Virus record (IMG/VR): IMGVR_UViG_3300047318_000369
Coordinates: 1 to 64,000 of that record
Source: a virus
DNA: 64,000 nt
Strand: one strand, 5' to 3'
Shown here in pieces: positions 4,813 through 52,137 of the stretch. Below the pieces are notes generated by a model, which was not told where the DNA came from, searched no databases, and saw nothing but the letters and a program-made list of their open reading frames with translations. A program made the translations under genes and the position numbers. The stretch's first letter is position 1. Each line of letters begins with the position of its first letter.

Positions 4813-5577
4813 ATGAGTACGACTCGTACCCGCTGGCTGCCCGCTGCTCAGAGCGTGGGCTGGTTCCGGCTCGACCGTCACGAAGACCCCGACCCCGCCG
4901 ACCCGGAGCCTGCTCCGGACCCGGCAGCCGATCCGGCAGATCCGGACCCCGACCCTGACCCGGCAGGTGACCCGGCGGACCCCGAGCCTGAGGATGACCC
5001 GGAGGGCGCCGACGAACTCGGCGAGGGCGGCAAGCGGGCCCTTGCCGCAATGAAGGCCGAGAAGGCGGCGGCGAAGAAGGAAGCCGCAGCCGCCAAGAAG
5101 CAGGCGGCCGAGGAGCGGCGCAAGGCCGCCGAACTGGCCCGCAAGGTGGCCGATTTCGAGGACCGCGACAAGTCGGAGCTGGAGAAGGCGCAGGCGAAGG
5201 CCGAACGCTCCGAGAAGCAGGCGACCGAGGCGGTTGCCCGCTCGGTGCGGTCCGAGATCAAGGTTGCGGCGAGCGGCACGTTCGCCGACGCCTCGGATGC
5301 CATCGACGTGTTGATGCGCGACCCCTCCAAGTACGTCGACAGCGACGGCGAGATCGACACCGCCGCGATCGAGAGCGACCTCACGGATCTGCTGGAGCGG
5401 AAGCCGCACTGGGCCAAGCCCGAACCGACCGCCCCGGTGGTCGAGCCGAAGCAGAAGCTGAAGCCCGATCCGGGCCAGGGTTCGCGGGGCGCTCCGGCTC
5501 CCGTGGACTACCGCACCGCCTCGAAGGAAGAGGTTGCTGCGGAGCTCGGCAAATTCGGCTACCGGCAGCGCGTGTGA
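4813..5577 (+). CDS. Scaffolding protein with N-terminal WFRLDRH motif
   Basis: Internal scaffold for prohead assembly. The 254-residue protein has an acidic Asp-Pro repeat (about residues 24-70), a long Lys/Ala/Glu coiled coil (about 80-150) and a C-terminal capsid-contact region, the usual scaffold layout. Start ATG 4813 has GGGAG upstream. Residues 17-23 read WFRLDRH; the major capsid protein has WFKLDRH at 19-25. With a Prp-like protease gene immediately downstream (4-base overlap), this shared motif is a good candidate cleavage signal. Confidence 0.85.
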   Translation: MSTTRTRWLPAAQSVGWFRLDRHEDPDPADPEPAPDPAADPADPDPDPDPAGDPADPEPEDDPEGADELGEGGKRALAAMKAEKAAAKKEAAAAKKQAAEERRKAAELARKVADFEDRDKSELEKAQAKAERSEKQATEAVARSVRSEIKVAASGTFADASDAIDVLMRDPSKYVDSDGEIDTAAIESDLTDLLERKPHWAKPEPTAPVVEPKQKLKPDPGQGSRGAPAPVDYRTASKEEVAAELGKFGYRQRV

Positions 5578-49227: not shown

Positions 49228-49515
49228 TCAGTCGGAAGTGCCGGCCATGACGCCGTCGTACAGGTCGGCGTAGTGCGCGCGGAAGGTGTTCGCGACCGAC
49301 GTGTCCTCGTCGAAGACGGTGCGGAGCTGGGCAACCAGGGCCGCTTGAGCCTTCGCCTGCTCGTAGAAGTCCATGCCGACCAGGACGACGACCTGCTTGC
49401 CGCGGGACGTGAGCACGGTCGTCTCGTCGAAGTAGCGGGCCCTCTCGATCGCCTCAGCGAGCGAGTTCCGTACCTCGGCGATCGACTTCTGGTGCTCCTT
49501 CTTCGGCGCGGTCAT
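49228..49515 (-). CDS. Phd/YefM-type antitoxin-like protein
   Basis: 95 residues on the minus strand inside a rightward operon. SIAEVRNSLAEAIERARYFDETTVLTSRGKQVVVLVGMDFYE (in part) is the Phd/YefM fold: N-terminal DNA-binding region and a C-terminal tail that would bind a toxin. No toxin gene lies beside it. ATG 49515 is six bases after the -10 (leaderless). It may be a stand-alone regulator or an anti-toxin against host systems. Confidence 0.75.
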   Translation of the reverse strand: MTAPKKEHQKSIAEVRNSLAEAIERARYFDETTVLTSRGKQVVVLVGMDFYEQAKAQAALVAQLRTVFDEDTSVANTFRAHYADLYDGVMAGTSD

Positions 49516-49521
49516 GTCCGG

Positions 49522-49577
49522 AGTGTACCTCAGGATCATGGTGTACATGAGCGCGTTCAACGCTATGATGTACATGA
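49522..49577. promoter_or_regulatory. Divergent promoters with TGTAC operators
   Basis: Three GTGTAC/ATGTACAT sites at 49523-49528, 49541-49548 and 49568-49577. The leftward -10 TACACT (49527-49522) lies six bases before the antitoxin ATG and overlaps the first site. The rightward -10 TATGAT (49564-49569) has TGTACA 16 bases upstream (49542-49547) as its -35-like element and lies next to the third site. Autoregulation by the Phd-like protein is inferred. Confidence 0.6.
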
Positions 49578-49672
49578 ACCCGTGATGCATGGGACGGGAG
49601 TCCTCATGCCCCCGTAGGCGGCGCAACTTTCCCTGCCCTACGACCAATGCGAACTCCCGAGAGAAGAGACAG

Positions 49673-50575
49673 ATGGGTTACGAGCTGCGCCGGCAAATGC
49701 GCGAAGCGCTGGGGCCGGAGATCACTGGTCTTCAGCGTGCTGTCGCGCTGGAGATCGCCGACGACGCGAATGAGCGGACGCGGCGCAGCTGGGTGGCCCT
49801 TGAAGACCTTGCCCGCTGGACCGGCGCCAAGGACGGCAGCGTCGTCCGCAACGCCCTCAAGCGGCTCGCCGCAGCCGGATGGGAGTTCCGCGTGCCGATC
49901 GGAAAGGGGAAAGACGGACGCGCGCTGTACGCCGTACCCGGCACCCGGATGACCTTCTTGGTGCCTCACTTCGAAGGGGGAGCAGGGGCTACCCCTTCCG
50001 TGAATAAGGGAGAGCCAGGGCTACCCCAAGGGGGAGCCGCCGCTACCCCTTCGAAGCCACAAGGGGGAGCAGGGGCTCACTCAGAAGGTGCCACGGCTCC
50101 TTCAGAAGGTGCCGTGGCTCCCCCCTTCTCCTCAGACTCCTCAGACTCAAAGAAGCTAGCTAGCCAGCAGGCCGCCGCGAGTGAACCCGACTACGGCATC
50201 CCGGATGAGGTCCGGCCGCTCATCAACGGCATCGCCGCCGCAGGAGTCAACGTTCGCTGGCCCTTCCGCGGCAACGACTGGTTCCCGCTGATCGCGCTCA
50301 TCCGGAAATCCGGCGCCAGCGCGATGGTCGACGTTGCAATCAAGATCGCCAAGCGCACATCCGTCGACTCGGCCCGCTACTTCCTCCCCGCCTGGACGGA
50401 CCTGGCGCCGCTGCCCCCCGCCGACTTCCCCCGGCCAGTCCTGCATGCCGTACCCGACGAGCACCTGTCCACAGCAGACCAGCGTGTCGCTGTCGGCCAG
50501 GCCCTCGCCGCCAAGTTCCGCGAGGAAGAACGCCTCGCCCTAGAAGCCGGCCACGCCAATCAGGAGCCCGCATGA
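49673..50575 (+). CDS. Replication initiator with internal repeats
   Basis: 300 residues. N-terminal winged helix-turn-helix (TGLQRAVALEIADDANERTRRSWVALEDLARWTG in part). The central linker is built from repeats GGAGATPS, GEPGLPQ, GGAAATPS and GGAGAHSEGATAPS encoded by direct DNA repeats. The C-terminal domain, HAVPDEHLSTADQRVAVGQALA, is probably the helicase-loader contact. This layout is that of lambda O-type initiators. Start ATG 49673. Confidence 0.75.
   Translation: MGYELRRQMREALGPEITGLQRAVALEIADDANERTRRSWVALEDLARWTGAKDGSVVRNALKRLAAAGWEFRVPIGKGKDGRALYAVPGTRMTFLVPHFEGGAGATPSVNKGEPGLPQGGAAATPSKPQGGAGAHSEGATAPSEGAVAPPFSSDSSDSKKLASQQAAASEPDYGIPDEVRPLINGIAAAGVNVRWPFRGNDWFPLIALIRKSGASAMVDVAIKIAKRTSVDSARYFLPAWTDLAPLPPADFPRPVLHAVPDEHLSTADQRVAVGQALAAKFREEERLALEAGHANQEPA
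49974..50128 (+). repeat. Iteron array inside initiator gene, candidate origin
   Basis: Six direct repeats: 49974-49998 AAGGGGGAGCAGGGGCTACC..., 50006-50030, 50028-50052, 50061-50080, 50085-50103 and 50106-50128. Each contains an AAGG...GGCT...CC(T)TTC partial dyad. Position is between the DNA-binding and the C-terminal domains, where lambda has oriLambda. Coding for GGAGATPS-like units explains part of the conservation; the DNA dyads suggest it is also functional as DNA. Confidence 0.65.
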
Positions 50576-50814
50576 CCCTCGCCGAAACCGCCGACCTGCT
50601 GTCGATCGCAGCCGCAGTCGATAAGCGCACGCTCGGCGAATCCGACGTCCGCGCCTGGCAGATGGTCCTCGACGACATCCCCCTTGACGCCGCGAAGGAA
50701 GCCCTCCGCGCCCACTACCGCGAGACCACGAAGCACGTCATGCCGGCCGACATCGTCCGCCGCGTGAAGCCCAAGTCCGGTTACGAGTCCAACGTCGAGA
50801 AGGGGATCTTCTAA
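50572..50814 (+). CDS. Helicase loader/inhibitor (G39P-like)
   Basis: 80 residues, ATGA overlap with the initiator gene and GTG of the helicase right after. TLAETADLLSIAAAVDKRTLGESDVRAWQMVLDD (in part), then AKEALRAHYRETTKHVMPADIVRRV resembles phage G39P/DnaC-like helicase loaders: a short helical domain that holds the helicase hexamer. Its place between initiator and helicase supports this. Confidence 0.65.
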   Translation: MTLAETADLLSIAAAVDKRTLGESDVRAWQMVLDDIPLDAAKEALRAHYRETTKHVMPADIVRRVKPKSGYESNVEKGIF

Positions 50815-52137
50815 GTGCCCGACGATCTCGACTCCGACTTCGGCGTCCCGTTCGAACGTGTCCCGCCGCACGACGCTTACGCCGAACAGGCAGCGCTCGG
50901 CGCCTGCATGCTTTCGCCGGCCGCCTGCGCCGAAGTCCTTGCCGCCGTCGCGCCGGAAGCGTTCTACCGGCCGCAGCACGTCACGATCTACCACGCGGTC
51001 GCCAACCTGTTCCTGGCCGGCGAGCCAGTCGATCAGATCACCCTGGCGAAATACCTCGGCGACTGCGGGGACCTCACCCGGATCGGCGGCCCCGCCTACC
51101 TGTCCGAGCTGGTGCGGGCCGTACCAACCGCAGCGAACGGCGAGTACTACGCCGACATCGTTCAGGACCGCGGCCTGCGCAGGTCCGTGATCGAACTCGG
51201 TGCGCGTCTCGTACAGATGGGCTACAGCCCTGACGGCGAGACCGCCGAGATCATCGAACGCGCCGTGACGATGTCCCGCGAACTCCGTGACCGCAGCGGC
51301 GAGGACGACGACCTTCCGGCCGAGGACATCCTCGACTTCGTCCAGCACGAGGACACCTACGACTGGATCGTGCCCGGGCTGCTGGAGCGCATGGATCGCA
51401 TGATCCTTACGGCGGGCGAGGGTGGCGGGAAAAGTGTTTTGCTTCGGCAGATCGCCGTCACGCTCGCCGCGGGCATCCACCCGTTCGAGACGTGGAAGAC
51501 GATCGACCCGATCAGGGTGCTGGCTCTCGACTGTGAGAACGGTGAGGCCGCGTCCCGCCGCAAGTTTCGGCCGCTGCTCGACGCCGCCGCCAGCCTTGAG
51601 CGCCCCGTCGGCCGCGGCCAGTTCCACATCCGCTGCCGGCCCGAAGGCCTCGACCTCACGCGCCCGCAGGACCGGTCGTGGGTGATGCGCCGTGTCGAGG
51701 ACTTCAAGCCCGACCTGCTGATCGTCGGCCCGATCTACCGCCTGCACGCCGGCGACCCCAACTCGGAAGAGCTCGCCCGCAAGGTGTCCGTCGTCCTCGA
51801 CGAAGCCCGCGCCACCGCGGGCTGCGCCGTGTTCATGGAGGCCCACAGCCCGCACCACAACGGCTTCGGGCAGCACCGCACCCTGCGCCCCGTCGGCTCC
51901 TCGCTGTGGATGCGCTGGCCCGAGTTCGGCTTCGGGCTGCGGCCCGTCGAGGACGCGAAGTCCGCCGAAGACGGCGACGGCGCCCGCGGCCGGCGCTTCC
52001 TGCCCTGGCGCGGCATGCGCGACGAGCGCAACTGGCCGCAATTCATCAAGCAGGGCGAGAAGTGGCCCTGGATGTCCTACCGCCCCGTCGACACCAACGA
52101 ATTCACGGGCCACTCCGAGACAGGAGCCATCTGGTGA
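50815..52137 (+). CDS. DnaB-like replicative helicase
   Basis: 440 residues from GTG 50815, directly after the loader stop. N-terminal DnaB_N domain (AEQAALGACMLS..., to about residue 120), then an RecA-like core with Walker A GEGGGKS at 201-207, ALDCENGE, and DLLIVGPI as Walker B. The core is closer to RepA/AAA_25 type than to classical DnaB. It is fused to a DnaB-type N domain, an unusual mix. Likely the fork helicase. Confidence 0.85.
   Translation: MPDDLDSDFGVPFERVPPHDAYAEQAALGACMLSPAACAEVLAAVAPEAFYRPQHVTIYHAVANLFLAGEPVDQITLAKYLGDCGDLTRIGGPAYLSELVRAVPTAANGEYYADIVQDRGLRRSVIELGARLVQMGYSPDGETAEIIERAVTMSRELRDRSGEDDDLPAEDILDFVQHEDTYDWIVPGLLERMDRMILTAGEGGGKSVLLRQIAVTLAAGIHPFETWKTIDPIRVLALDCENGEAASRRKFRPLLDAAASLERPVGRGQFHIRCRPEGLDLTRPQDRSWVMRRVEDFKPDLLIVGPIYRLHAGDPNSEELARKVSVVLDEARATAGCAVFMEAHSPHHNGFGQHRTLRPVGSSLWMRWPEFGFGLRPVEDAKSAEDGDGARGRRFLPWRGMRDERNWPQFIKQGEKWPWMSYRPVDTNEFTGHSETGAIW

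Follow-up and report, generated by a model that had tools for sequence, protein, structure and literature searches.

The window analysed here comprises the first 64,000 bases of the IMG/VR record IMGVR_UViG_3300047318_000369, which is 90,552 bases long. Its gene content includes a terminase, a major head protein, a tape-measure protein and an integrase, and is thus that of a temperate tailed phage. Genomes of Streptomyces, Kitasatospora and Catenulispora hold relatives of the initiator gene considered below, and the phage appears to be temperate and of the Streptomyces type. A megablast search of the 24 kb flank against phages returned nothing but methylase fragments.

The initiator gene is located on the plus strand at 49673–50575 and encodes 300 aa (MGYELRRQ...), predicted to form a winged-helix N-domain, a disordered linker and a helical C-domain. 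The start at 49673 is the best placement, favoured over a longer ORF start at 49589, because relatives begin with MGYELRRQ or similar at that point. A Phd/YefM-type antitoxin gene (PF02604, E 5e-10) lies divergently just upstream, at 49228–49515 on the minus strand. Two direct repeats of ATGRTGTACATGAR (TGTACA palindromes) are located between the two genes at 49538–49583 and are possibly the operator of the antitoxin gene.

In AlphaFold predictions (35 sequences) the winged helix spans residues 3–88, with a moderate N-domain pLDDT of 73 and the elements H3-12, H19-31, H43-50, H55-67, E74-78 and E84-88; the model of the whole initiator is weak (pLDDT 59). The predicted DNA-binding domain corresponds to codons 1–88 (49673–49936, plus strand). 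Linker residues 84–173 are predicted to be disordered, coinciding with the iteron array, and residues 178–242 of the C-domain are predicted to be helical. The C-domain, of type I (50189–50572, plus strand), is also found joined to unrelated N-domains with other iterons and is proposed as a putative contact site for loader and helicase. An HTH_36 match to the initiator falls below the Pfam cut-off (E 1e-4). The N-domain lies weakly near PHROG replication-initiation and O-like families (E 1e-4 to 1e-3), ‘replication initiation O-like’ being matched by the initiator only at about 1e-3 to 1e-4. Phage_rep_O is absent from the Pfam matches of the initiator at E up to 1, and the RepA_N N-terminal domain is not among its Pfam matches. 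Family assignment by Foldseek, tried with full-length and N-domain models, gave generic winged-helix matches in the PDB, none with E below 0.04, and was set aside.

The stop codon of the initiator gene is overlapped by an 80 aa gene (50572–50814, plus strand), a candidate helicase loader by position, and this is followed by a replicative helicase gene (50815–52137, plus strand). The helicase combines a DnaB N-terminal domain (PF00772, E 2e-29) with an AAA_25/RecA-like ATPase domain (PF13481, E 1e-21) and matches the PHROG DnaB-like helicase (E 6e-33). It has no DnaB_C match; the helicase of one relative, L197, has a normal DnaB_C. PHROG matches of the 80 aa gene are to families of unknown function, with helicase loader appearing only at E 0.16, and no relevant match was found among solved structures, including the SPP1 gp39 loader, at E up to 10. 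The gene is conserved in relatives, and the next gene in the relatives tested encodes either an IstB/DnaC-like ATPase or a DnaB helicase. Where the initial annotation had read a helicase loader followed by a helicase, the helicase stands, as one of the DnaB type, while the loader label is drawn from position and from the relatives rather than from a family match.

Six dyad repeats, with an 18 bp core of RRGKWGC-N4-GCWMCYY, occupy 49977–50123. Allowing up to 1 mismatch, the cores start at 49977, 50009, 50031, 50064, 50085 and 50106. Iteron 1, AAGGGGGAGCAGGGGCTACCCCTT (49974–49997, core 49977–49994), encodes EGGAGATP. Iteron 2, AAGGGAGAGCCAGGGCTACCCCAA (50006–50029), carries the dyad of the other units in a different reading frame, KGEPGLPQ, and abuts iteron 3, AAGGGGGAGCCGCCGCTACCCCTT (50028–50051). 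Iteron 4 is AAGGGGGAGCAGGGGCTCACTCAG (50061–50084, core 50064–50081), iteron 5 is GAAGGTGCCACGGCTCCTTC (50084–50103) and iteron 6 is GAAGGTGCCGTGGCTCCCCC (50105–50124); all six are listed on the plus strand. There are two subtypes, with arms of AAGGGGKAGC in units 1–4 and of GAAGGWGC in units 5–6. Six direct repeats with internal dyads had been described between the DNA-binding and C-terminal domains in the initial annotation; the degenerate dyad finds exactly six there, and both the AlphaFold layout and the site scan bear out the placement.

Outside the array, the 64 kb window holds only two scattered sites of this pattern (≤1 mismatch). Chance would give 2.5 sites in the window, and the total of 8 was reached in 0 of 100 shuffles; the consensus was itself derived from the array. 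A pattern-free test is described below. In pattern searches of the whole 90.5 kb record the core dyad GGGNAGC-N4-GCTNCCC (≤1 mismatch) is confined to the initiator gene, and no second iteron array or oriR-like second origin was seen. Elsewhere in the window, at 4900–5013, there are tandem repeats of 18–27 bp rich in GACCCGGA/CCC units, which would encode a DPEPDP-like peptide.

Domain-by-domain searches recovered about 90 distinct related phage or prophage genes, in which N-domain classes are accompanied by iteron cores of their own. In the A group these are GCTACCCC (A), GGCCCAAC (A2) and GAAGGAGC (A3); in the other classes they are GTCCCGGA/CAGTGTC (B), CCGGATTC (C), GTCACGCA (E) and GACGTACC (F). 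Of 87 genes, 79 have the iteron core that belongs to their N-class. The rest comprise three A genes assigned to the related A3 core, together with divergent genes of B, C and E. In N-classes E and F (L202–L258; VSTEAVxWAMD..., VRIRRSRLT...) the arrays, of GTCACGCA and GACGTACC, are long.

Start-to-start distances between the six units are 32, 22, 33, 21 and 21 bp, each close to a whole number of helical turns. Spacings cluster at 21–23 and 32–33 bp, with a mean vector of 0.71 at 10.5 bp. This phasing bears on whether the dyads form hairpins in the mRNA that serve in attenuation or in the pausing of translation, or else provide short homology that eases domain-swap recombination. Perfect dyads could make stems of 8–10 bp, and single motif matches elsewhere look terminator-like: an exact-dyad scan of viral contigs gave more than 120 stretches, mostly single palindromic, terminator-like matches, and was thus not specific, the recognised multi-copy loci being initiator genes. 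However, the arms are often mismatched (G opposite A) with the half-site still kept, and helical phasing and class-specific sequence suit protein binding. Domain swapping is indeed frequent at the linker, but swapping between classes needs no class-specific arrays. Hairpins or recombination tracts as the basis of the array are therefore judged very improbable. Among the viral contigs scanned, the dyad AAGGGGNAGC-N4-GCTNCCCCTT is single-copy in many (L022–L100), where such single dyads are perhaps terminator hairpins.

The array could instead be a feature of the protein only, a disordered GGAGATPS linker grown by tandem duplication with no role as DNA, and protein-level selection of this kind had been offered as an alternative in the initial annotation. 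Five of the six units are in one frame with similar peptides, and the linker is predicted to be disordered. However, whereas units 1 and 3 read GAA GGG GGA GCN NNN GCT ACC CCT (unit 3 with the AA of a CAA codon), unit 2 reads AAG GGA GAG CCA GGG CTA CCC CAA, a one-frame shift that leaves the dyad unchanged. Among 30 full-length class-A genes, with the one in the window counted, 29 retain such a frame-shifted unit when up to 3 mismatches are allowed. The class E core uses all three codon phases, as does the core in one B gene (L180). In a Streptomyces tuirus prophage (L193, from 4001) the class-A ORF stops at 117 codons within the array; despite the shortened ORF, the second dyad of the array has been preserved, in the third reading frame.

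Codon choice points the same way. Across class A, 73 dyads are observed vs 21.6 after within-linker synonymous permutation (sd 3.8, max 34 of 500), and the number falls to 3.7 with codon usage drawn from the rest of the genes. In the pattern-free test, 8-mer counts were compared with those obtained after the codons of the linker had been permuted synonymously. Taken by itself, the window gene has 13 inverted 8-mer pairs vs 4.1 permuted (p about 0.018), 5 repeats in another codon phase vs 0.7 (p about 0.013) and 37 direct repeats vs 3.7 (p about 0.0025). Pooled over the 30 class-A genes, inverted 8-mers number 716 vs 147 permuted (max 216) and off-phase repeats 393 vs 38 (max 74). In the N- and C-domain controls, inverted repeats do not depart from the null; off-phase repeats in the N-domain one lie barely above theirs (26 vs max 25), showing that shared ancestry slightly inflates the pooled counts. 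Class A3 (L165, L166, L169, L198) fits its motif in the pattern-based test with no special choice of codons, which makes that test uninformative for this class; its pattern-free test is positive. Within the linker GC3 is 0.55 vs about 0.88 elsewhere, and the linker strongly prefers GCT, GGG, CCT, TCA and GTA, codons that are normally rare.

The frame-shifted unit, the excess over codon permutation and the drop in GC3 together indicate that the array is maintained as DNA; judged from the sequences, the iterons are kept beyond the needs of the encoded protein. The examination of synonymous sites proposed at the outset thus had a clear outcome, codon choice keeping the dyads and permutation failing to reproduce the array. 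Selection on the protein does not by itself explain the repeats, and a purely protein-level origin for them is extremely improbable. The linker would rather serve two codes, a floppy peptide and codons chosen to preserve DNA binding sites.

Between the array and the C-domain lies an A+T-richer segment (50123–50172, plus strand; ...TTCTCCTCAGACTCCTCAGACTCAAAGAAGCTAGCTAGC...), a weak candidate for an unwinding element. It contains the lowest-GC 40-mer of the gene (0.50, within the lowest 1 % of the window), and is only mildly A+T-rich, with GC of 0.50–0.56 vs a window mean of 0.69. The lowest-GC 50-mer is located just before the C-domain in 25 of 30 class A, 23 of 25 class E and 7 of 7 class F genes. 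Class F has a strong A+T-rich tract after the array (mean minimum GC 0.43). GC skew does not turn near 50 kb and is uninformative for origin location.

Considered together, the sites, their conservation at the DNA level, their spacing, the gene order and the cassette behaviour described below suggest that the array is most probably the initiator-binding part of a theta origin inside the initiator gene, an intragenic origin of the lambda O or SPP1 gp38 type. The N-terminal winged helix, probably as a dimer, would bind each dyad, and the six sites, phased on one helix face 21–33 bp apart, would build an O-some-like complex. The A+T-richer DNA downstream, at about 50123–50172, might then open. 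The C-domain, tethered by the linker, would recruit the 80 aa protein and the DnaB-type helicase, a step suggested by the gene order and by the relatives with IstB/DnaC-type loaders.

Iteron-binding initiators often autoregulate, and these sites lie 300 bp inside a transcription unit, where they could form an operator or roadblock by which the protein restrains transcription of its own gene or limits copy number, with the start of replication at another site. Such a role is unlikely to account for the array, since there are no matching sites near the promoter, helicase and putative loader genes lie downstream, and the 90.5 kb record is without a second array to act as origin. The inter-domain position and the swapping of N-domain with array also fit known intragenic origins.

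The lambda-O-like layout suggested by the initial annotation holds at each part, from predicted winged helix, iteron-bearing linker and helical C-domain to small gene and DnaB-type helicase. Lambdoid phages have their origin midway along the O gene, with iterons and an A+T-rich region (PMC7466680). Ori-lambda and the six-iteron origins of Stx phages resemble the present locus in having mid-initiator iterons; the A+T-rich region adjoining them (PMC7466680, PMC6022878) has a candidate counterpart here. Iteron number differs among relatives in lambda and Stx phages, altering the encoded protein (PMC7466680, PMC6022878), and a similar variation is seen among the present relatives. However, there is no Phage_rep_O match here, the A+T-rich tract is much weaker, and the helicase is phage-encoded, whereas lambda borrows that of its host through P.

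The order of initiator, small gene and DnaB helicase is closer to SPP1 38-39-40 than to lambda O-P. In SPP1 the oriL repeats, located within gene 38, are bound by gp38, and helicase loading is carried out by gp39/gp40 (PMC6316719). The gene for the origin-binding protein carries its own direct repeats, and a small gene and one for a DnaB-family helicase come next (PMC6316719), as here; the A+T-rich element beside the SPP1 repeats has a candidate counterpart at 50123–50172. SPP1 differs in having a second origin, oriR, none being seen in the 90.5 kb record; additionally, the 80 aa gene lacks a sequence match to the solved loader and the setting here is GC-rich and actinobacterial. Mycobacteriophage RepA replicons likewise belong to actinobacterial phages with an HTH initiator, and their origin has been suggested, by analogy to lambda, to lie just upstream of or within repA, with no repeats identified (PMC7157519). 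RepA replicons keep the prophage extrachromosomal (PMC7157519), whereas the present record carries an integrase. The Streptomyces phages Eklok, Darolandstone and Raleigh share the type I C-domain at about 40 % identity, but their N-domains are unrelated and their repeat sequences different. Eklok has six direct linker repeats with a GTCGGGAATCCCGGAC core in two reading frames; the records of the three phages show no repeat annotation.

Among the relatives, N-classes A, B, C and D occur with C-type I, whereas those found with C-type II are A, B, C, E and F. The simplest reading of the match between class and core is that each N-domain recognises its array, which we infer from sequence comparison. 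The N-domain adjoins the array and co-inheritance could partly reflect physical linkage; linkage could yield part of the class/core pattern, but not the codon-level conservation. N-domain and array would travel between phages as one specificity cassette, with the C-domain belonging to the loader/helicase side. On balance, streptomycete temperate phages seem to share a combinatorial initiation module, in which at least seven unrelated or diverged N-domains with their own dual-coded arrays are exchanged against at least four C-domains and loader/helicase partners. The architecture is already known in kind; what is of interest, and most deserves testing, is that cassettes are swapped among at least seven N-domain/iteron classes. 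No earlier description of the cassette swapping or of the streptomycete arrays was found in the literature searched, the coverage of which was incomplete, and no mapped origin for this group of phages is given there.

For a large group of streptomycete phages, the likely origin is thereby narrowed to about 150 bp. The array also provides a clean natural case of a dual code, in which a single binding site is preserved across two or three frames. If the combinatorial module is real, it would amount to a natural series of intragenic origins that are orthogonal and exclude one another. The matching of N-domain and array within each cassette could be the reason for exclusion between phages by replication type, and such cassettes could supply orthogonal replicons for Streptomyces vectors.
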